Shown piece after piece: positions 2,601-43,130 of a DNA stretch of 64,000 nucleotides; positions within the stretch are counted from its first letter, which is position 1, and each line of letters starts with the position of its first letter. The position numbers and the translations under genes were made by a program. Under the pieces are notes generated by a model. It ran no database searches. It was not told the origin of the DNA and worked only from the letters and a program-made list of their open reading frames with translations. Source of the stretch: Mesostigma viride (Eukaryota > Streptophyta > Mesostigmatophyceae > Mesostigmatales > Mesostigmataceae); the NCBI GenBank assembly GCA_009746045.1, contig RPFO01000819.1, forward strand, positions 684,382-748,381. Reading direction: 5' to 3'.

Positions 2601-2938
2601 CTGCGCACAAAAACCGGCACAGGGCCGAAAAATTCGTGAGGAACATGCGTAGCACAGGGGAAGGGAACTCATGAACACATGGCCTCCCGGTTGTTTTCGC
2701 TGTGCACGTACACAATGTGGCTGCAACGTGCTCATTAGCACAAGCGAAGCACACGGGCAGCACATGGCTGCGCACAACCATAAGAAGACACACAAACTAG
2801 CCCGCCACAGTTATAGTTAGCACGTGCGAGTGGGCGACCAGAACGTGGCTGCGCGCGAGGGCGCATGAGCGACCGAGGGGACGTCGTTGGTGGCGAGAAG
2901 AGGGAGCGCGCGCGACACCAGCACGTGGCTCAGCACAG
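2591..2938 (-). repeat. Degenerate copies of the C11 exon start
   Basis: On the minus strand the acceptor plus exon start GCGCAGCCACATGCTG (2591-2606) recurs in degraded form near 2711, 2762, 2840 and 2922, each as a (G)CAG-CCAYRTKSTG-like block. The copy at about 2690-2722 still resembles coding sequence over about 30 bases. This suggests local duplication of the exon edge. Confidence 0.5.
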
Positions 2939-2945
2939 CCACAAC

Positions 2946-5391
2946 GGCACCATGACCGAACCACCCACCATGACCGAACCACCCACCACGCGGCACCATG
3001 ACCGAACCACCCACCACGCGGCACCATGACCGAACCACCCACCACGCGGCGCCATGACCGAACCACCCACCACGCGGCACCATGACCGAACCACCCACCA
3101 CGCGGCGCCATGACCAAACCACCCACCACGCGGCGCCATGACCGAACCACCCACCACGCGGCGCCATGACCGAACCACCCACCACGCGGCACCATGACCG
3201 AACCACCCACCACGCGGCACCATGACCAAACCACCCACCACGCGGCGCCATGACCGAACCACCCACCACGCGGCACCATGACCGAACCACCCACCACGCG
3301 GCACCATGACCCACCACGCGGCGCCATGACCGAACCACCCACCACGCGGCGCCATGACCGAACCACCCACCACGCGGCACCATGACCGAACCACCCACCA
3401 CGCGGCGCCATGACCGAACCACCCACCACGCGGCGCCATGACCGAACCACCCACCACGCGGCACCATGACCGAACCACCCACCATGACCGAACCACCCAC
3501 CACGCGGCACCATGACCGAACCACCCACCACGCGGCGCCATGACCGAACCACCCACCACGCGGCGCCATGACCGAACCACCCACCACGCGGCGCCATGAC
3601 CGAACCACCCACCACGCGGCACCATGACCGAACCACCCACCACGCGGCGCCATGACCGAACCACCCACCACGCGGCGCCATGACCCACCACGCGGCGCCA
3701 TGACCGAACCACCCACCACGCGGCGCCATGACCGAACCACCCACCACGCGGCGCCATGACCGAACCACCCACCACGCGGCACCATGACCGAACCACCCAC
3801 CACGCGGCACCATGACCGAACCACCCACCACGCGGCGCCATGACCGAACCACCCACCACGCGGCGCCATGACCGAACCACCCACCACGCGGCACCATGAC
3901 CGAACCACCCACCACGCGGCACCATGACCGAACCACCCACCACGCGGCGCCATGACCGAACCACCCACCACGCGGCGCCATGACCGAACCACCCACCACG
4001 CGGCGCCATGACCGAACCACCCACCACGCGGCGCCATGACCGAACCACCCACCACGCGGCACCATGACCGAACCACCCACCACGCGGCGCCATGACCGAA
4101 CCACCCACCACGCGGCACCATGACCGAACCACCCACCACGCGGCACCATGACCGAACCACCCACCACGCGGCACCATGACCGAACCACCCACCACGCGGC
4201 ACCATGACCGAACCACCCACCACGCGGCGCCATGACCGAACCACCCACCACGCGGCACCATGACCGAACCACCCACCACGCGGCGCCATGACCGAACCAC
4301 CCACCACGCGGCGCCATGACCGAACCACCCACCACGCGGCGCCATGACCGAACCACCCACCACGCGGCACCATGACCGAACCACCCACCACGCGGCACCA
4401 TGACCGAACCACCCACCACGCGGCGCCATGACCGAACCACCCACCACGCGGCACCATGACCGAACCACCCACCACGCGGCGCCATGACCGAACCACCCAC
4501 CACGCGGCGCCATGACCGAACCACCCACCACGCGGCGCCATGACCGAACCACCCACCACGCGGCGCCATGACCGAACCACCCACCACGCGGCGCCATGAC
4601 CGAACCACCCACCACGCGGCGCCATGACCGAACCACCCACCACGCGGCGCCATGACCGAACCACCCACCACGCGGCGCCATGACCGAACCACCCACCACG
4701 CGGCGCCATGACCGAACCACCCACCACGCGGCACCATGACCGAACCACCCACCACGCGGCACCATGACCGAACCACCCACCATGACCGAACCACCCACCA
4801 CGCGGCGCCATGACCGAACCACCCACCACGCGGCGCCATGACCGAACCACCCACCACGCGGCACCATGACCGAACCACCCACCACGCGGCGCCATGACCG
4901 AACCACCCACCACGCGGCACCATGACCGAACCACCCACCACGCGGCACCATGACCGAACCACCCACCACGCGGCACCATGACCGAACCACCCACCACGCG
5001 GCACCATGACCGAACCACCCACCATGACCGAACCACCCACCACGCGGCACCATGACCGAACCACCCACCACGCGGCGCCATGACCGAACCACCCACCACG
5101 CGGCACCATGACCGAACCACCCACCACGCGGCGCCATGACCGAACCACCCACCACGCGGCACCATGACCGAACCACCCACCACGCGGCACCATGACCGAA
5201 CCACCCACCACGCGGCGCCATGACCGAACCACCCACCACGCGGCACCATGACCGAACCACCCACCACGCGGCACCATGACCGAACCACCCACCACGCGGC
5301 GCCATGACCGAACCACCCACCACGCGGCGCCATGACCGAACCACCCACCACGCGGCACCATGACCGAACCACCCACCACGCGGCACGGATA
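2946..5391. repeat. 28-bp minisatellite, about 87 copies (2.4 kb)
   Basis: Tandem array with core ACCGAACCACCCACCACG followed by CGGC(A/G)CCATG. The main variation is one A/G site per unit. A few units lack the CACGCGGCRCC part, shortening the period there. Because 28 is not a multiple of 3 and no unit holds a stop on the minus strand, all three minus frames remain open for over 850 codons. These are artefacts: the frames encode the same peptide cycle and none has independent support. Confidence 0.97.
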
Positions 5392-31461: not shown

Positions 31462-31828
31462 CTAGTCTGAGGTGGCAGGAGGGGGCTGCCAGGGCTTGTG
31501 GTCAACGTGGATGACCGCCCCCCTCCAGTATACCGGCTTCCCCCTTGCGCTCTGCCGGAGCTGAAGGTAGGTCGGCCATAGCTCGCGTCGCCGTTGTTGC
31601 TGGGCCAGGGTCAAGTCGTCGTCCAGCGTGAAGCGAGTCTCCGAGAGCTTCTTGCGGCATTTAAGGAACGCCAGCTTGTCCGCCATGTACTTAAAGGTGA
31701 GGAGCACGGGTGCCGGGCCAGCCTTGCCCCGCGCGCGGGGGAGGCGGACAGCCGACATGTCCAGCTCACCAGTGAGTAACATGGGGGCAAGAATGGCGCG
31801 CTTAAATGCCTCAAGAAGGCTCGGAGTT
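31462..31828 (-). pseudogene. LINE ORF1 C-terminal half, split from 41950-43130 by the transposon
   Basis: Minus-strand frame MLLTGELDMSAVRLPRARGK ... FTLDDDLTLAQQQRRRELWP is the ORF1 CTD. Homology to the intact ORF1 (28678-30085) stops exactly at the transposon edge (31828) and resumes on the far side at 41950. Confidence 0.85.
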
Positions 31829-31854
31829 GTTGCGCTGGATTAGGACAAATTGCG
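31829..31854 (+). repeat. Left terminal inverted repeat
   Basis: GTTGCG followed by CTGGATTAGGACAAATTGCG, then a subterminal ATTTAGGACACTTTTGATGCC. The 26 bases are the exact reverse complement of 41924-41949. Confidence 0.95.
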
Positions 31855-32552
31855 AAATTTAGGACACTTTTGATGCCGACTCAAGATAATAAGTTGATTT
31901 GGGTCCCTTTTACGGGCCAATATGTGGCTGACATTGATTCCCTACGTATTCAACTGTTTTCAACCTATTTGGTACCACCCTGCAGGACATTTACCGGGTG
32001 ATGCTCGTGACGGTGCCCTTCATGATGTCATGCTTACTTCCATATAATGCATGAGCGTGGACACGATGACTTTAATGCGCGGAACGTGATTGTATTTGCC
32101 AGGGAAGTGTACCATGCATGCAGTAATTTCATACAATCTTCTCGCATAATGCATGAAGTCCTCCCCGGGCATGGAAACATTTCAATACCAACAATGAATT
32201 TTGAGGTAGTGATGTAGCATGCATGCACTTGGGTGTACTGTCAGAGCTATTGGTGCTAACACATGCCGCCAATTATAATGGCCAAGGTGCATGTATAATA
32301 TTTTAAAATGTCCAAAGAGACATTGTTGGGCGTGCATGGCTAATAACGCCCTTATTATCAATCAGTCCAATATCCTGGACTAGACAGCTCCGCGGCTTTT
32401 GCGCCGAGTTCCTCTTGAACAAATTATACTCTAGCCTACCATGACCGGGACGCCCAGATAATTAATAGCATGTTGCATCCGTGCAACACATAGCCTAGAT
32501 ATAGTGTCAATGGAATGCCATATCAAGAAACGGTTGCTTCACATGAAAACGG
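31855..32552. other. Left non-coding arm of transposon
   Basis: No ORF of note. AT-rich, with several TGCATGCA-type palindromic stretches (32115, 32220). Ends at the stop codon of the PHD/polyQ gene. Confidence 0.6.
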
Positions 32553-34795
32553 TCAGTAGTAACGAGGTTGCGGCAATGGTGCCGGCTGCCATGCCAATGT
32601 CATCGAGGGAGGCTGCTGCCAAGCGGCAGCCGCTGATGTCGCCGGTGCCGGTGGCTGTTGGTACCATCCCGCGGCTGCAGTTGCTGGTGGCTGCGCGTAT
32701 GGTGCCGGCGTGTATGGTGCCGGCGCATACTGTGGCTGCGTCAACGGTGCCGGCGCGGTTGCCGGTGCCAGGACCTGCTGGTACCATCCTAGTGCTTGTG
32801 CCGGTGGCTGCGCATACGGTGCCTGGGCGGCTGCCGTTGGTGGCGGGTAAAGCGGTGCCGCCGCGGGTGCCGGTGGCGGCGGGTAATAAGGCGGTGCCGC
32901 CGCGGGTGCCGGTGGCGGCTGGTAAAGCGGTGCCGCCGCGGGTGCCGGTGGCGGCGGGTAATAAGGCGGTGCCGCCGCGGGTGCCGGTGGCGGCTGGTAA
33001 TAAGGCGGTGCCGCCGCGGGTGCCGGTGGCGGCTGGTAATAAGGCGATGCCGCCGCGGGTGCCGGTGGCGGCGGGTAATAAGGCGGTGCCGCCGTGGATG
33101 CCGGTGGTGGCGGGTAATAAGGCGGTGCCGGCACGGCTGCTGGTGGTGGCAGGCAAGGCGGTGCTGTCGCCGGTGCTGGTGGTGGCAGGGCTTCTGGCGG
33201 CGGGGCCTCGGCTGCCGGTGCCTGCTGCTGCCGCCTCCCCTGTCGTTGCTGCTGCGGCGGCGGCTGCTGTTGCTGTTGCTGTATTTGCTGCATTTGCTGC
33301 AGCAGCAGCCGCTGCTGTTGTTGCTGCTGTTGTTGTTGCTGCTGCAACTGCTGCTGGAGTTGTCGGTGCTGCTGCTGGACCTCTTGCAGAAGCTGGGCCT
33401 GCTGCTGTTTCATACCCTCCAGTTGTGCCTGCACTTCTGTTGGTACTCGCGTTGTGCCGGGCAGGGCCTCCTGCAACGGCTGCGGCCCCGGGCGCCGTTT
33501 CTCCGGCTGGCGCTTCTTGGCATCTGGGGGGGGGGCTGGAAGGCCTGCTTGGCGGTGATTCGCTTCGCTCGCCCTAGCCCGGCGTTGGTGATATCCGTGA
33601 GCGGTGCCGGTGCCGCATCGGTCATGGTGGTGTCTTGTGTCCGCCGTTCTCGGGATGGCGTATCAGGAGAACCACACAGATCCATCGTGGCCCGCTGCGG
33701 GAATGCGTTACTGAGCAGGATGCTTGGGACGGGCGCATTGCCCATCAGGGCAACTAAATTGGGCTCGTTCTCCTGGGCCCACGTCAAACACTCCTGCATT
33801 TCATCATTCCATGCGTTTGCAGGGATGGATTTACCCGGAAACGTTACACCAGGGACATCGCACCACTTGGGAGGGTTGTTGGCCACGATGAGTGCCACTT
33901 GGTTGTGGAAGTGGATGCCGGTGGGTGCGGGCCTGGTCATGGAAGGAGTAAACGAACATAGCAACGACTTGTAGCTCGAATTCTTCGTTTCGCGGGCTAA
34001 CAGAGCGCTCATGGTCTTGTTTTTCCAGCCGCCCAAGATGATGCCGACATTTTGCCTCCATGGGTGAAGGTTCACGACGGCCCGAGCCATGATCCCGCAT
34101 TCGGCCCTAAAACCAGGAACCCCGCCCCCCACAGATATGGTGCTCTCATTTCGACCTTGGACCGGCATTGTCTTGAGCACCGGTGGATCAGGTGAAGGAA
34201 ATTTCAATGTCATCTTGGCATCCTCCAGCTCGGAGCGACTGAACCCTTTGCCACGCTCGTCGGCCGGGGTACTTTCCATCACGTTGTCAATGGAATTGTC
34301 CCCCGTCAGGTCGGAGGAACCCAGGTGTGCACCACGGCTGGCCGGATCGTCATCGCCACTGTCGACCATCTTGTCGTCACTGTCATTCTTGTCGTCACGG
34401 TCCTTTTTATCCCCGGCAACCTTGCCCTTCCCGCCCAAATTACTATGAAGATCTACCATCCCCGCCAGGTCATCCTCGGAAACTGGAGCATTAAAGTTGA
34501 TGCCGGCCGGGAGGGGGGGACGTGGGTTGTTGCCGACATGATGAGTCGCTTCCTGGTCTTGCTTGGACGACCCAGCAAAACATTCGGGGCACATCCATTC
34601 TGCCCCTTCTTCAGCACTTGGGTCCTTGAATAGCCCCGTGCATATCCCATGGACGTGCTTTCCACACGACCCACTGCATGGGTGATTGGCGCCACTCAAG
34701 AGCTCCTCCTTAGAAACGCCATCCTCGGATGCTCCGCCTCCCAATTTCCTACACTTTTCGCCTGCAAAGCAGGCATCACCGTTGCTCTCTGACAT
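32553..34795 (-). CDS. PHD-finger / polyQ-proline-rich protein of the transposon
   Basis: Starts at ATG 34795. The N-terminus is a PHD-like zinc finger: ACFAGEKCRK, ANHPCSGSCGKHVHGIC, EWMCPECFAG (C-x5-C, C-x3-C, H, C, C-x2-C). An acidic linker (DKKDRDDKNDSDDKM) and a conserved-looking middle domain follow (ECGIMARAVVNLHPWRQNVG, SMTRPAPTGIHFHNQVALIV, NEPNLVALMGNAPVPSILLS). At a run of ten C (plus-strand G, 33526-33535) the frame must shift to continue into DAKKRQPEKRRPGPQPLQEA, a polyQ coiled coil (MKQQQAQLLQEVQQQHRQ) and APPYYPPPPAPAAAP repeats ending PQPRYY. The shift is probably a homopolymer indel or sequencing error. It is divergent from the transposase gene, so the two could share control. 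Role unknown; chromatin targeting or an accessory transposition factor is inference. Confidence 0.7.
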
Positions 34796-34949
34796 TTATT
34801 ACTCACTTTTCCGCAGCACTACTCATTGCTTCCGGCATTATCGCCAACAATCGTTTAGCCGCACCGAATACCATCGTTTCCGGCGTTAAATTCATTCCAA
34901 GACGGAGGCACTGGCTGGAGCCCCGGCTCAGGCGGGAGATCCGGCGTTT

Positions 34950-35575
34950 GAATGAGGTGACAGTTGCGGATCCCAGGCATTATAGTATCTCCGAAGCCAG
35001 GCTTCGTGTCCGTTTCCTAGTACAAGGCATCGTATCTCAGACAAGTATCGCAGACAAGGTTTTCCCCAGCGGAGGCCAGGCATCGTATCGCCGCGGACAG
35101 GTTTTTCCATAGCCGAGGCAGGCAACGTATAAATTATTCCCCAGCCGAGCCTGCCGAGGCCAGGCATCGTATCTCCGCGGACAAGGTTTTCCCCAGCGGA
35201 GGCCAGGCATCGTATCTCCGCGGACAAAGTTTCCGTAGCCGACACAGGAATCTTATAAAATATTCCCCAGCCGAGCCTGCCGAGGCCAGGCATCGTATCT
35301 CCGCGGACAAGGTTTTCCCCAGCGGAGGCCAGGCATCGTATCTCCGCGGACAAGGTTTCCGTAGCCGAGGTAGGAATCTTATAAAATATTCCCCAGCCGA
35401 GGCCAGGCATCGTATCTCCGCGGACAAGGTTTCCCCAGCGGAGGCCAGGCATCGTATCTCCGCGGACAAGGTTTCCGTAGCCGAGGCAGGCAACGTATAC
35501 AATATTCCCCAGCCGAGGCCAGGCATCGTATCTCCGCGGACAAGGCTTCCCCAGCGGAGGCCAGGCATCGATACA
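34950..35575. repeat. Higher-order tandem repeats between the divergent transposon genes
   Basis: Units of GGCCAGGCATCGTATCTCCG plus CGGACAAGGTTTTCCCCAGCGGA alternate with (G)GTAGCCGAGGCAGG and a TATA-like block (CGTATAAATTATTCC, CTTATAAAATATTCC, CGTATACAATATTCC), giving a super-period of about 115-130 bp, 4-5 times. It lies exactly between the two start codons. Confidence 0.85.
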
Positions 35576-35991
35576 GTAGCTCGACCTAAACTGTACACTG
35601 TAACCTGATGTGCGTGAGAGGTACGCCGAAGGCATGATGATTGTCTGTCAAGCAACGCCACGCTGTCATCAGTGCTATTACAATGTCTTAAAGAGGTGCT
35701 GCAGGTGAGACAACCGGCTGCTAATAATCTGCTGTAGCGTTTGTTGTGCGAATTAATTTTGCAGGGGACGAATCATTGGTATGAAATGCGGATGCTATTA
35801 AATGGTGACAGAAGCAGACAGGACCTAGACTAGAGGTGGCCAATCTACGTGACATAACCAGTTGTGGCTAGGTAGTAATGGTAGGGTAGCTGCGTCCAGG
35901 TACCTTGGTTTGAAGTTTCTAGTATCGCAGTCTGTTGGGAATCCAGGTTGTTGCGTTTACAGATAGGGAGAATGCTGACGGAGTAGGCACA

Positions 35992-38900
35992 ATGGGCGAT
36001 GACGCAGTGGATCCGGATGTGCTAATGTGGGATGGCAGATTAGATGACGGGTGGGATGCCGACGATCCAGATTACGAATTTTCATTCCACGATGGCGTAC
36101 AGGAACCGCCAACTGAAGCCAAACGTCCTGGCAAGCAGAGATTAGACGCGCTTCGTGAGCAGAAGCTGGCTGCTGTTACGGGCGACATGGCGAAGCGGTA
36201 TTGTTGCACAGAGCAGCGCTGCCTTCACCAGTTTAACAGTTACCTCGTAGACCACAGGACCTGGACAGCCGTGCGCCAGGAATTTTACAGCCATCCTGAC
36301 AAGGCGCGCATGGCAACCCTGGCTGACATCATCCGATCAGGTGGGGTAGGCAGCATTGAGGTGAAGCCCCCCGGCCCAGGTGGTCAGTACCACCACATCA
36401 GATTCAAAAGTCCATTGCATGTGGATGTGCACGTCGACGGCGCCACGCGCACCATCAGCGGGTGTGCGACTGCAATCCGCAAAGTGTTGGGCGTGGAGCC
36501 AAAAACCTGGAACAAGGTGGTGAAGGGGGTCGCCTACAGCAAGCAGTTTTTCGATGCGGTGGACCGTGACACCCTGACCAGTCATGGATTGCCGGGTGTG
36601 TGCCACGAGGAGACTCCGCGCCGGACGCCTGTCGCTGGGCGCTCTAGTGCCACGGAGTACGCTGCTACCTGGATCTGCCGGCTGGTGAGCGAACTGGGGG
36701 ACAGCGACCCCGCCCACCCGGATGTTGCCTACATGGATGTTATCCCCATCACCGACATGCACCAGCTCTACGTGGCCGATGCCAAGCTCGAGTTCCCTGG
36801 AGATGAGTATAATAGAGGCCGCTCGATGATCCTGAAGTACCGGGCGTTCCATGAGGTGTGGACCGCGTTCTGCGAGGGCAACTACTTCCAGGGGTCGCCC
36901 AAGGTCATCTTGAAGACGAGCGCCAAGAACGTCGGGCAGTGCGCGACCTGCGTCGAGTTGCGGCACCTGCACACCCATGCGTCGGACAAAGCACAGCGGA
37001 ACTACATCGCTCATCTCACCAAGGCACACCTCGCCCTGGTGAGGTTTGCGCGCCAATTGTACTGGCAACGGCGCGACTTGGCCCTGCTGATGCTCTTGTG
37101 GATTTCACTCTGCATTGACAAGATTGACCATGCGAAGACGTACTTTCCTAAGCTGGTCAACGGCCCATCCTCCTGGCAGTCCCACGCGAAGAGCATGGTG
37201 CAGTTTTCACTCTTCTGCGTATGCGCGCACGCGTACAAGGCATTCTGGTTTCCCGTCCTGCCATGCGTGCTCCTAGATGAGGGCCTCTCAGGTAGCGTCA
37301 CTGTCACGATGCTGATGCACGTGTTACTATGCATGATACGTGATGCCCCGTGGAGGCGGCTCGGCAATAGAAGCATGCCACGCTGCCTAGTCCTGCAAAT
37401 GGACGGCGGTTCTGAAAACCGCAACTACACAGTCCTTCTCTGGGCGTGGTGGCTCGTCCATGTGGGGCTCTTTGACGTGGTGGAGATGCACCGCATGCGG
37501 CGAGGGCACACGCATGCAGACTGTGACCAAAAGTTCGGGGTGCTGGTCGGGTACATGGACCACGGCGTCGGCGCGAGAGCAAAGAAGTCCAACATATTCC
37601 CCACGATGGAGAGCTGGGAGCAAGCAATTCGAGACGCGTTCCACGGCATCAGCAACGCCACGGTGCCAGAGGGCGTGGATGTGCAGTGGCTGGGTGAGGT
37701 ATACGATGTCCAAGCGTTCCTCGTGTGGCTGAAAGCCTCCAAGTTCGAGAAATGGTGCAGGTCACGCGACTGGTGCGCCGCGGTGGGGAAGGAAGAGTCT
37801 GAGAAAGTAGGGCAATCTATGAAGCCGCACCATGTCGTGTTCTTCAAGGTGGTGGGAAATGACGAGGTGTGGATGGCGTACCGCTTCACCGAGTCAAAGC
37901 GAACTCCATGGCAGCCCGCTGGGGTGCGCGATGAAGACGCGCCGCGGAGCGGCAGGGCACGCATGCACCCCTACAAGCACGACGACGCGGGGAAGCCTCT
38001 GTTCGGGGTCCGCGTGGTGGATCCGGACCTGGTCGCTAATTTGGAAGACACTCCCAAGACGGCGCCACTCGACATGCGCTTTTTTGACAGGGAGCTCGTC
38101 AAGATCCAGAACGCGGTGGCATCCCTGCCCAGCAGCTGGCAGTCCTTCTTCAATGCCACGGACATCCAGCCCACCGTCAAGTTTTTGAAGGAGGCTGAAC
38201 AGTTCCCGGACAAGATGCCCAAGAAGTTGCAGCCTTTGCCATGGCCAACGCGTGCAGAAATCGCAGCAATGCGTGATCGTGAGGCTGCCGCGGCTGCGGC
38301 TCAACCGGCTGTGACCCAAGCGGACATCACAACAGCCCTCATTGACGAGGCGGCGCTCCGGGCAGCGCCGTTGGTAGACCCTGTCTGCCACGATGGTCGC
38401 ACGCGTGCGGAGTGGGTGGAGGAAGACCGCGCGTTTGGGGCCAAGGTGGCATTCGAGGAGCGCCTCAAGGGCGTGCAGGCTGGCTCGCCTGTTATATACA
38501 AGCATCCCAATGCCGACATGCTCTGCAACTCTGAACTGCCATGGACCCCTGTACTGTACGGGGAGGTGAAGGAGGTGCATCAGGGCAGCGAGGAGGGCGC
38601 TGAGCCTCATCTTGAGGTGTACGTGTACCGCGCCAAGCACTTGCGCGACTCGTGGCACCCATGGATACCTGACGTGGCTGTATGGCCGCATCCACCATCT
38701 GCCAACGTGGACCGCCACGTGGTGACCATCCCGGCATCGGCCCTTGTCCTCACCCATTGGGCGCCACCCAGCAAGCGGAAGTCCCTTCCCGTCCGCTCAG
38801 TGTCCTTGGATGCTAAGAAGAAGCTCACCAAGGACAGTTGGAACGCGCTCAAGCTGGTGCCATGTGACGCAAGTCGCCCTGCTATCGACTGGCAAGCGGT

Positions 38901-39367
38901 CTCCACCACAGCGGGTATGAGGCGCCTGACTGGAACACGCTGGGAGGACATTTTGAAGGCGGTGAAGAGCGGCGGGCGCTGCCTGGTGGGGCAAGTCGTG
39001 TGCCAGTGGGCAATCAAGCACGTGCGAGACGAGCATGGCAACCTGGTGAAGAACCAGAAGGAGAGGTTCCATGGCCGCGTCGCGGTCGTCAATACCCAGC
39101 ATGACATGGTGGGCCTATTCTGGGGTGCGCATTGGGAGGAAGAGGCCGTGAGCACCGTGGCACTCCCTGAGCTAGGAGGAGTGATCTGTGCATGCCCAGG
39201 TGTTAAAGTCCCTGAACTTCAGGCATCCGAGATCGCCAGGGCTGAAGACTACCTACGCGCACACGCCGCCGGCGCGCCGGCTGCCAAGCCTACCAACCGT
39301 TCGCGCGCGCGCGCCCGCGGCGCGCAGGCTGCTGCTGCGGAGGAGGCGGGTGGGGTTGACGAGGACG

Positions 39368-39457
<90 letters not shown>

Positions 39458-39495
39458 GTGAGGAGGAGGAGGAGGAGGAGGAGGAGGAGTCCTGA
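35992..39495 (+). CDS. DUF7869-like protein, putative DDE/RNase-H-fold transposase, 1167 aa
   Basis: First ATG of the open frame is at 35992 (MGDDAVDPDVLMWDG). The N-terminal region has RYCCTEQRCLHQFNSYLVDH, then a Cys pair (GQCATCVELRHLHTH) that may bind zinc. The core is ISLCIDKIDHAKTYFPKL (Asp 376/379), then RCLVLQMDGGSENRNYTVL (Asp 471) and HRMRRGHTHADCDQKFGVLV (His 506, Asp 510/512). This D ... D-x4-N ... GHTHxDxDQxF series matches the eukaryotic domain I know as DUF7869, and the spacing fits an RNase-H-like fold. The C-terminal part (about 680-1100) has DNA-binding-like basic stretches, then RSRARARGAQ, (D)n and (E)n tracts. The frame ends at TCC TGA. It is intronless, unlike its neighbours, as expected for a transposon gene. 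The transposase role is inferred from context; no catalytic test is possible here. Confidence 0.72.
39370..39456. repeat. (GAT)n microsatellite coding for polyAsp
   Basis: About 29 GAT triplets inside the end of the putative transposase ORF, followed by (GAG)n. Prone to slippage, relevant to the frame break at 39493. Confidence 0.95.
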
Positions 39496-40282
39496 GGAGG
39501 AGGAGGAAGAGGAGGGGGAGGATGACGATGAGGACGAGGATAAGGATGATGATGATGATGATGAGGAGGAGGAGGAGGAGAAGGACCGCTCACGCACATG
39601 CACCCGCGGCGCGCCGGCTGACAGGGCTAAGAACCGTTCGCGCGCGCGCACCCGCGGCGCACAGGAGGAGGAGGAGGACAAGGACGAGGAGGAGGAGAAG
39701 GACCGCTCACGCGCACGCACCCGCGGCGCGCCGGCTGGCAGGGCTAAGAACTGTTCGCGCGCGCGCGCCCGCGGCGCACAGGAGGAGGAGGAGGACAAGG
39801 ACGACGAGGAGGAGAAGGATCGCTCACGCGCACGCACCCGCGGCGCGCCGGCTGGCAGGGCTAAGAACCGTTCGCGCGCGCGCGCCCGCGGCGCACAGGA
39901 GGAGGACGAGGAGGAGGAGAAGGACCGCTCACGCGCACGCGGCGCGCCGGCTGGCAGGGCTAAGAACCGTTCGCGCGCGCGCGCCCGCGGCGCACAGGGG
40001 GAGGAGGAGGACGAGGAGGAGGAGAAGGACCGCTCACGCGCACGCACCCGCGGCGCGCCGGCTGGCAGGGCTAAGAACCGCTCGCGCGCGTGCGCCCGCG
40101 GCGCACCGGAGGAGGAGAGGGAGGAGGAGGAGGAGGACCGCTCGCGAGCATGCGCCAACGGCGCAGAGGAAATCGAAGAAGAAATGCCGCGTGGCTTGCG
40201 CCGCACGCGGGCAAACAAGGCTCAGGTCTTGTCGGATAGCGACAGTGGTGGCGAGGCACCAGCGGAGGCATTGGAGGCGTGA
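39494..40282 (+). CDS. +1-frame C-terminal extension of the putative transposase (262 codons)
   Basis: Directly after UCC (39490-39492) the stop UGA (39493-39495) can be bypassed by skipping one base. The next frame runs EEEEEEEGEDDDEDED and then about six repeats of KDRSRARTRGAPAGRAKNRS followed by RARARGAQ and acidic runs, ending SDSGGEAPAEALEA. The repeat unit is the same motif as in the upstream frame (GAPAAKPTNRSRARARGAQ), so the two frames belong to one protein. Either a programmed +1 shift or a one-base indel separates them. A third option is an intron with donor at GATG|GTGAGG (39457). Confidence 0.55.
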   Translation, partial: EEEEEEEGEDDDEDEDKDDDDDDEEEEEEKDRSRTCTRGAPADRAKNRSRARTRGAQEEEEDKDEEEEKDRSRARTRGAPAGRAKNCSRARARGAQEEEEDKDDEEEKDRSRARTRGAPAGRAKNRSRARARGAQEEDEEEEKDRSRARGAPAGRAKNRSRARARGAQGEEEDEEEEKDRSRARTRGAPAGRAKNRSRACARGAPEEEREEEEEDRSRACANGAEEIEEEMPRGLRRTRANKAQVLSDSDSGGEAPAEALEA

Positions 40283-41923
40283 TCGTCTTGGTCTTCAATC
40301 AGCACGTGGTAGTAGTTTTTTTTTTTGTCGCCGTGCAATTTTGCTTTCTTCATATGTGATGTGTGCCATGGACATTTCTCCGGCTGGCTTTCTGCATAGA
40401 TCTGACACGTATTGGATTCACTGGCAACATATCTTGTATATTACCATATACAATTGACAATGTGTGTTGTTCTTGTCTTTATCCTGCTGTTGCGGCTGTT
40501 ATATGCTGTTGCGGTTGTACCACTGTCCTGAACTCATTCCCTTCGTGCCATTCACGCTACCGTGTTTGCTACTGCCACTTATGCTCCGTGGTTGCCCATT
40601 GCGATTCCAGGGATCATGGATGGGGCCAGTGCTGAGGAGGGGGGTTGCACGTGGAATACGTCTCTGGTGCTGCAAGCATTATTAGCTGCATCTTCACGTG
40701 TCGCTGTTTTTTATTCTTGCACATCATGGCTGGTGGGGCCTGCGGGGGGCTGGGCTCCGACATATTTTGTGGCATATATGCCAAACCATTATTATGTTTC
40801 ACCGTTACTTCCCTCCCACCTGCCTCGGCCTTGTGTGCCAGGCAGGGGACGAACCGGTTTTACTGACATGCGTGACTGAAGCGGTGTCGGGACGTAGTAT
40901 TCCACAGGGAGTGGCAATGTCTCTTCGAAGCCACTGGGTTAGATCAGATGCCCGGGCCAGGGTTGCATTTCCAGGCCTGTATGGCTGGCTCCCCTGCATG
41001 GCTAGCACTTGGATCTCCCAAATTTGATCAGTCAACTGATTTGATGCTTTGACAACTACAATGAAGTTATAATGGCTGGGTCACCAATGATGTTATGACT
41101 CGTTGTCATCACTGCAAGCAATGTGCTATAGTTGCTGCAACCCTCGCGCACTTGCAATGGCCATTGAACATGCGTTAAACCACTATGCGCCAATTTGCTC
41201 TTGCCGCGTGCCGTAACTGCCCGAGTGCCACGGTCTTACATCATCCTTGCTACCGGTGCTATTGCGGACACACTCGTGATTCATGCACTGAACCGTTGTT
41301 TGCTTCTGGCACTATTGCGTTTTTATAAACCGCGTAGCTAGCTAGCTGCTGCCGTCGCCATTAGGCGGGGCGATGATGCTCGTTGCCGCTCCTTGATTCA
41401 ATTGGTGCCCACTGCGGTTGCTCCCAAGTAGCATCCATCTTTGGTTCAGTTTGTTGTGATCAGTCGAGACGCATGGGAGCTTGATCCAACACATGCATTG
41501 TTGGTATATAACATACTCCGCAAAGCCGCGAAGCCGCGACCCTGTGCGTTAGCTAGCAGACCTGGCGGCACCTGTGATCCTAATACATGGCATAATCCCG
41601 CGTGCAAACTTTGCCGGACTCAGCATGGTCTCTCCACTGAATTGATATTGATACATGCATGAAAGATGTTTATTTCAGCCAGACAATGAATTATGAATGC
41701 ATTATATGTATTATAATCATAGGATCTCAGCATCTTCAATCATGATGCCATGTCGGAGACAGTGTGTATAGCAAATATGCATTACAGCATGGAATACTTT
41801 CCTTGAAACACAAGCGCTGATTAAAATTTCTTGACAAAACTTGTTAAAACATATTCTGAAATGCTCCTGGCATAAAAAAACCATGTTTGCCAACTTTTCA
41901 TTTAGGACACTTCTGATGCCTTC
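40283..41923. other. Right non-coding arm of transposon
   Basis: No ORF with coding features and no splice-bounded exon that I can see. The 3' UTR of the putative transposase presumably begins here (T-run at 40318-40326). A tandem CTAGCTAGCTAGCTG sits at 41336. The subterminal segment TTTAGGACACTTCTGATGCC (41901-41920) matches the left subterminal motif but in inverted orientation relative to the terminus. Confidence 0.6.
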
Positions 41924-41949
41924 CGCAATTTGTCCTAATCCAGCGCAAC
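41924..41949 (-). repeat. Right terminal inverted repeat
   Basis: CGCAATTTGTCCTAATCCAG followed by CGCAAC, the exact reverse complement of 31829-31854. Confidence 0.95.
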
Positions 41950-43130
41950 CACTCTCGTGGAGGTCTCACCTGCCTGCTGGTCGAAGTGCTTGACGATGAC
42001 ATTGTGGCTGCGCCGCGCGATGTCGGCTTGGAACCTCGCGAAGGTCGAGGGCTTGTTGCTTGAGTTGTGCCGAGATGGTGGAGGTGGTGGAGGTGGTGTG
42101 CTGCTTAAGCAAGTCCGCCCAGGTGGAGGGAGCATCGCCGGCCGGGCCAGCAGGCGCCGGCTGGGCGGCGAGGTCCTTCACCGCCTGGGCGGTGAGGCCG
42201 GCGGTGTCATGCAAGCTCTCAAGGGCGTTGGCGGTGGCTTGAAGGCGGTGGTCGAGGTCGAGGAGCTGGGCTTTGATGTCGGCAGTGGAGGCGGAAATGG
42301 CAGTGGAGGTGGAGGCGGCGGCGGTGGAAATGTGAGGAAGTTCAGCAGTCAGCGTGCCGCCGATTGCTGCTATGTCGGCAGCAAGGGGGGTCACGTGCTG
42401 CTGAAAGGCTTCCGTGAGGATGGAACGGAATGCGGGGGCGGAGATGGATGGAGCCCAGATCTCGCCGTCAGACTTCTGGAGAAGAGAGTTGAGGACGGCG
42501 CCGTTGGAGTTGGGGGCGGGGACACCCGAACATCTGGCTGATGTTGTGCCAGCGTCGGCCGTCGTCGACGAGGAGGCGTCCAGTGGCGTGGAGATGGAGG
42601 CACAGGTCGTAAAGCGAGGCGTAGTCCCCGAAGAAGATGTGATGCATAGCCTCACTCGGAGAAATGGTGGTCCAGTCGTAATCATCGACCTGGAAAGGTT
42701 GGGGCCGAAAGCGCGGTTCCGAGAAGCGTGTTTCCGCCCAGCGTGGCCCTCCAGTTTTGTCGGCGGGGCGGGCGCGTTTAGGGTCAGGCGATGCCGATGG
42801 CGAGGCATTGAGGCCGGGAGGTTGCTGGGCGACCACCAGTGCACGACTAGTGTCACCGCTGCCTGCCGGATCTGGCGAAGCGGCAGCCTCAGCTGCCGCA
42901 TTGTTGAAGGCGAGCGCATCCGCCAAACTGCGTTGCGTCGACGGGCGTTTGCTCGTCATATATTGCGTTTTAGATTCGGAAAATTATATCAGCATGTGCG
43001 TCTTAGAAAGACGAAGCGATAGTGATATTCACGACTAAATTCGGTGCTCAAACGTGAAAGTTATGAGCTCCGACAGCCATGGCTACCTCGTGGCTCGTGG
43101 CTCGTACATCCGTCAGCCATGCATATTGGC
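41950..43130 (-). pseudogene. LINE 5' UTR and ORF1 N-terminal half, split by the transposon
   Basis: On the minus strand: 5' UTR (43115 to 42960, ACGCACATGCTGATATAATT), then MTSKRPSTQRSLADALAFNN, a frame change near 42480, TAQAVKDLAAQPAPAGPAGD and TWADLLKQHTTSTTS, stopping at 41950. It continues at 31828 on the other side of the transposon. About 80 percent like the ORF1 at 28678. Confidence 0.85.

Follow-up and report, generated by a model that had tools for sequence, protein, structure and literature searches.

What kind of element interrupts a long interspersed nuclear element (LINE) in the streptophyte Mesostigma viride, and does the DUF7869 protein encoded in it bring about its movement? 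These questions are raised by a 64,000-nucleotide stretch of the M. viride genome (contig RPFO01000819.1, positions 684,382 to 748,381; hereafter the window), in which open reading frame 1 (ORF1) of a LINE is split by some 10 kb of DNA with inverted ends and two genes, one coding for a large protein with DUF7869 and the other for a protein with a PHD-like finger, accompanied by glutamine-rich (polyQ) frames. The element is a class II DNA transposon with terminal inverted repeats (TIRs) and has moved, and DUF7869 is very probably the core of a transposase of the three-aspartate (DDD) type. The probability that DUF7869 represents the catalytic core of an undescribed eukaryotic DDD superfamily, characterised by GRG termini, 3-bp target-site duplications (TSDs) and a divergent chromatin-reading PHD-finger/polyQ partner that would serve target choice, is put at about one in two.

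A preliminary description of this locus had placed the element between 31829 and 41949 because 31829-31854 and 41924-41949 form perfect inverted repeats of 26 bp, and these repeats are present as claimed. When the M. viride assembly (440 Mb in 2243 contigs) was searched with the two ends, the left-end query (201 bp) gave 38 matches, 15 of them full-length (201 bp) at 96-100%, and the right-end query (300 bp) gave 35. Fifteen copies with different flanks were paired, 13 drawn from the 15 full-length left-end matches and two from a close subfamily; copies C1802 and C1635, without a paired right end, were left out. The left flank of C1635 (L006) is identical over 40 bases to that of C2074 (L001), and the two therefore represent a duplicated or haplotypic region rather than two insertions. 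Outside the 26-bp repeat, GAG plus two further bases are common to all 15 paired copies, these two bases being TT on the left and TG on the right in 13 copies and GT at both ends in two, and GAG also begins 47 of the 49 ends with distinct flanks among the loci collected, relatives included (GAC in the other two). An exact 3-bp repeat of variable sequence flanks 13 of the 15 paired copies (CCA, TCG, TGG, ATA, TTC, TTG, ATG, ATT, CTC, CAT, AAT, ATA and ATG); at the base composition of the window a chance match has p=0.016 per pair, and 13 of 15 matches have p=5.6e-22 if the pairs are independent. Because GAG and its two following bases are shared and 3-bp repeats flank the copies, the element is 31824-41954 with 31-bp repeats and the TSD TCG, each end lying 5 bp further out (GAGTT.../...CACTC) than had been described. 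The 9-11 bp of diverged LINE sequence thought to overlap at both edges is accordingly not a target duplication, while the description of a complete DNA transposon agrees with the many further copies that share its termini.

Unoccupied sites were sought by joining the flanks of the 15 copies, with the TSD kept once where present, and comparing them with the window and the collected loci. A paralogous site spanning the joined junction was found for four copies, the window element and three others whose sites match closely and are gap-free there: C1524 (99.3% over 297 bp, with a second site at 98.9%), C1406 (88.0% over 233 for one LINE copy and 79.2% over 240 for the LINE of the window at 42570-42809) and C1446 (92.3% over 273 at window positions 44838-44569). 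Two more distant copies of the C1446 site carry small indels no more than about 25 bases from the junction. The claim that the window insertion splits a single LINE ORF1 held, in that one frame remains open across the junction once the flanks are brought together and the halves belong to one site; another part of ORF1 sits in a different frame. As the junction is free of gaps against another LINE copy (29845-29554; 69.6% over 296) and the frame reads through, two unrelated LINE halves are very unlikely. The right halves of eight copies, aligning over 1.8 kb, are 99.4-100% identical to the window, and the left halves of five are 97.3-99.7% identical, with L004 at 90.8% and L008 aligned over 283 bp only. 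The window element very probably either is an autonomous transposon or was one until recently. Six end pairs lie only 2.55-2.60 kb apart (C2111, C1881, C1855, C557, C1646 and C1567), which leaves no room for the large gene, and these relatives are therefore internally deleted and must move in trans.

The assignment of the large protein to DUF7869, which the preliminary description had made, is confirmed by the Pfam model PF25273 (53.6 bits; curated cut-off 26 bits), an entry that carries no function. At least 150 matches above the cut-off occur in the M. viride genome (150 scored of 275 candidates) and none in 14 control genomes. Beyond the window family, five further DUF7869 groups (A-E) are 22-59% identical to the window core. 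Four aspartates, D376, D471, D510 and D512, are invariant in every row of alignments A3, A5 and A6 and are the only invariant acidic residues in 7/7 and 9/9 rows of the alignments that include the outside relative L118; in an eight-row alignment from the M. viride genome alone, the upstream D239 is invariant as well, and a CxxC pair N-terminal of the core is also invariant. An RNase-H fold with Asp 376/379, 471 and 510/512 clustered had earlier been predicted; of these residues D379 of the DKIDHAK motif is not retained in groups D and E. The second and third aspartates would be spaced by 38 (D510) or 40 (D512) residues. Between families, synonymous divergence is near saturation (dS 1.4-2.3) and amino-acid change is restrained (dN 0.37-0.47). 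In L118 the DUF7869 match begins 17 residues past the first invariant aspartate, and the catalytic unit would therefore comprise DUF7869 and about 20 preceding residues. Neither the window protein nor four DUF7869-positive relatives match a transposase family in Pfam at E up to 10, and eight further open frames examined in the element match no transposase model, two of them weakly matching repeat or low-complexity models. As the gene pair recurs in bounded families, no other transposase is recognisable in the element and the four aspartates are invariant, DUF7869 very probably forms the core of a DDD transposase, and the earlier view of this protein as a putative transposase is supported.

In families A and B the DUF7869 protein is about 50% and 35-38% identical, respectively, to that of the window, and both families share the GRG-type ends, 3-bp duplications and divergent gene pair of the window element. 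The termini are GAG..CTC in the window family, and elements start with GGG or GAG in family A (GGG in five and GAG in one of six left ends) and with GAG in family B. The family A copy at C1945:352141-363350 measures 11,210 bp and has perfect 29-bp repeats and the TSD TCT; duplications were found in 6/6 copies, the five others being CAG, CAT, ATG, TTG and TAA. Its ends carry GGATTAGGATACAT and TTTAGGATACATTTGATGC, which are related to GGATTAGGACAAAT and TTTAGGACACTTTTGATGCC of the window element. Among 40 left ends scored of 277 candidates, 34 are identical over 200 bp and six over 198, and of 275 candidate right ends 40 were scored, all of them identical over 200 bp. Family A looks recently active, with the limit that some ends are on short contigs and could be assembly duplicates. 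The family B element in C1 is 9,397 bp long, starts with GAGGGGATTCATA and has the TSD CGG, this being one copy whose boundary was set with knowledge of the flanks.

The two divergent genes reported earlier are both present in the element, and the partner frame runs divergently from the transposase gene in the same place in the window family, A and B, with the finger at the frame start. The PHD-like proteins of the window and family A are 28.5% identical over 354 columns (E=1.4e-23), and the finger pattern C..C-x3-C-x4-H-x2-C..W-x-C-x2-C is invariant in 3/3 families. Glutamine-rich frames follow downstream of the finger, joined with it in one 916-codon frame in family A and as separate frames in B and the window. 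The proposed PHD/polyQ partner stands as a PHD-like gene of three families, and the PHD match of the single window protein falls below the Pfam cut-off (E=0.0046). Conserved as a second component of the element, the PHD-like/polyQ protein most likely acts as a chromatin- or end-binding accessory factor. Minisatellite-like CCAGGCATCGTATCTCCGCGGACAAGG units occupy positions 35030-35570 between the divergent genes, the expected site of a shared promoter.

These observations suggest a mechanism in which the DUF7869 protein would be the transposase of a class II element and, very probably, a DDD enzyme whose triad is D376, D471 and D510 or D512 (DD38D or DD40D) in a presumed RNase-H fold. The transposase would bind the inverted repeats of 31 bp together with the subterminal repeats, excise the element by cut and paste, and link the element ends to both strands of the target with a 3-bp stagger; repair of such a staggered site would leave exact duplications of 3 bp that differ in sequence between sites. 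The PHD-like/polyQ protein may help in target choice or in assembly of the transposition complex.

Table 1. Features of the transposon and its flanks, in window positions
Feature	Position	Strand	Remarks
Complete DNA transposon, 10,131 bp	31824..41954	.	Ends common to paired copies; 3-bp duplications in 13/15 pairs
Left terminal inverted repeat, 31 bp	31824..31854	+	Identical to the right repeat at 30/31
Right terminal inverted repeat, 31 bp	41924..41954	-	Pairs with the left repeat
TSD TCG, left copy	31821..31823	.	
TSD TCG, right copy	41955..41957	.	
Subterminal motif TTTAGGACACTTTTGATGCC	31858..31877	+	From sequence; related motif in family A ends
Subterminal motif TTTAGGACACTTCTGATGCC	41901..41920	+	Near-copy of TTTAGGACACTTTTGATGCC in direct orientation, right end
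LINE ORF1 part downstream of insertion	31462..31823	-	
LINE ORF1 part upstream of insertion	41955..43130	-	
Putative transposase with DUF7869, 1167 aa	35992..39495	+	PF25273 at residues 436-577, E=2.7e-14; related proteins in families A-E
Putative DDD core	37117..37527	+	Codons D376 (37117), D471 (37402), D510 (37519), D512 (37525)
Conserved C-terminal region, residues 604-1089	37801..39258	+	Identity with family A 51% in 487 columns; alignment with B partial
Acidic and Arg/Ser-rich repeat tail	39350..40282	+	In the window copy, the frame that opens at 35992 stops at 39495
Divergent PHD-like protein, 461 aa	33410..34795	-	Cys/His finger at about 34580-34771
Glutamine/proline-rich frame	32553..33476	-	Probably 3' part of the PHD-like gene; finger and polyQ share one family A frame

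Several further features of the encoded proteins (Table 1) and of the related families were observed. The C-terminal region of the transposase (GRVAVVNTQHDMV..FWG) has no Pfam match, is conserved relative to family A to the same degree as the core, and may resemble a Tudor-like barrel. The transposase frame of the window copy ends within a GAT/GAG microsatellite (39350-39495), as against an open frame of 1384-1508 aa in 7/13 copies of the family; the length of the repeats in the acidic tail seems to differ among copies, and frame switching between copies may occur. In family A (L089/L090; 10215-12001 of L094+L089+L090+L095), tandem repeats of about 1.8 kb with an open frame split the conserved transposase halves, which match window residues 41-602 and 604-1089, and this stretch is either an intron filled with repeats or a very large repetitive insertion. 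The inverted ends of family B are long, about 800 bp, and are built of repeats spaced about 173 bp (L093, about 2818-3631; L092, about 1909-2714). L118 (CAILMA010000604.1; DUF7869 at 81.7 bits) is a eukaryote-like locus on a contig filed in a Bacteroidetes metagenome-assembled genome, where the DUF7869 protein is split over several frames and accompanied by a gag-like zinc-knuckle protein; it is probably misbinned eukaryote DNA.

Several results weigh against a DDD transposase built on DUF7869 and a PHD-finger partner. Two of the 15 pairs, C1690b (GTG/AGT) and C1502 (CAT/ATT), lack the 3-bp duplication; in each family PHD scores best among the Pfam models, but each match lies below the cut-off (E=0.0046, 0.061 and 0.1), and, measured against the C4HC3 pattern of a PHD finger, family B is without the second Cys of the first pair, which is kept in 2/3 families. 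L118 is the only relative found outside the M. viride genome. Structure modelling did not yield an RNase-H fold: a first model reached a mean predicted local distance difference test score (pLDDT) of 48 and a second, of the homologue L118, a mean pLDDT of 58 and a predicted template modelling score of 0.54, strands 2 and 3 were missing, and fold searches with these poor-confidence models gave no significant match. Since catalysis by DUF7869 is itself deduced, its gene could be a passenger on elements mobilised by some unrelated transposase supplied in trans from another locus, and the internally deleted relatives indicate that movement in trans does occur. This is improbable, as three families with different terminal repeats all carry DUF7869 and PHD-like genes, the acidic residues are kept despite low overall identity, and no other transposase model matched in the window element. 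Still less probable is the capture by repeats of host proteins with a non-transposase function, to which the cataloguing of DUF7869 as a domain of unknown function and its presence in the M. viride gene model P0001 might point: the genome holds at least 150 domain matches, and P0001, with at least 375 consecutive residues identical to the frame of the C1 element, is on this sequence identity itself a family B product.

If DUF7869 is indeed the core of an undescribed DDD superfamily, DUF7869 proteins in other annotations would represent transposases or their domesticated descendants, and a Pfam domain of unknown function would gain a testable one. That the families share a PHD-like partner suggests histone reading by a DNA transposon. 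The word DUF7869 was not found in the 5.39 million open-access papers searched, nor was an account of the element in the literature on superfamilies, PHD or M. viride that was consulted. The published account of M. viride repeats, in the portion available, stresses long terminal repeat elements (PMC6947507). The group is not marginal in this alga, given its at least 150 domain matches and at least 34 family A left ends identical over 200 bp. It is a candidate addition to the DNA-transposon superfamilies of Repbase, which are counted as 23-24 (PMC12730594, PMC10045372).

A doubtful but real possibility is that DUF7869 is the transposase of a diverged member of a known superfamily, such as Zator or an outlying CMCT lineage, or of an element held in Repbase under another name, in which case only the link to the Pfam domain would be new. 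Transposases of different superfamilies often resemble each other too little for Pfam to register, and the comparison was made without Repbase entries. Zator, a relative of the prokaryotic ISAzo13, is described as making 3-bp duplications (PMC10045372), as do the window family and family A; compared through Pfam alone, no Zator/ISAzo13-type model matched at E up to 10. EnSpm/CACTA and CMCT elements likewise combine 3-bp duplications with TIRs and large multi-gene elements, but CMCT termini are reported as mostly CA..TG and C(2)C and H(3-4)H motifs are reported for the transposases (PMC12730594), whereas the present elements end in GRG..CYC, and neither a C(2)C..H(3-4)H pattern nor a CxxC was seen by eye between the second and third aspartates in alignment A3, assuming D510/D512 to be the last catalytic residue. 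PIF/Harbinger (PHIS) shares 3-bp duplications, in its classic members, and a second gene, which is tail-to-tail in Ectocarpus, but its duplications are given as TNA or ANT (PMC12477816); among 20 duplications here one is TNA (TAA) and one ANT (ATT), and no Harbinger model matched. The large elements and complex transposases recall the Kyakuja-Dileera-Zisupton (KDZ) group. Zisupton makes 8-bp duplications. KDZ elements are recorded from green algae (PMC8226300), and Kyakuja is characterised by 7-bp duplications without TIRs (PMC12730594), as against 3-bp duplications and 29-31-bp TIRs here. In the features compared (termini, motifs, and duplication length and sequence), membership of CACTA/CMCT, KDZ or Harbinger does not fit. 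Judged by published descriptions and Pfam, the M. viride element possibly represents a new superfamily, with the window protein as a member of PF25273.

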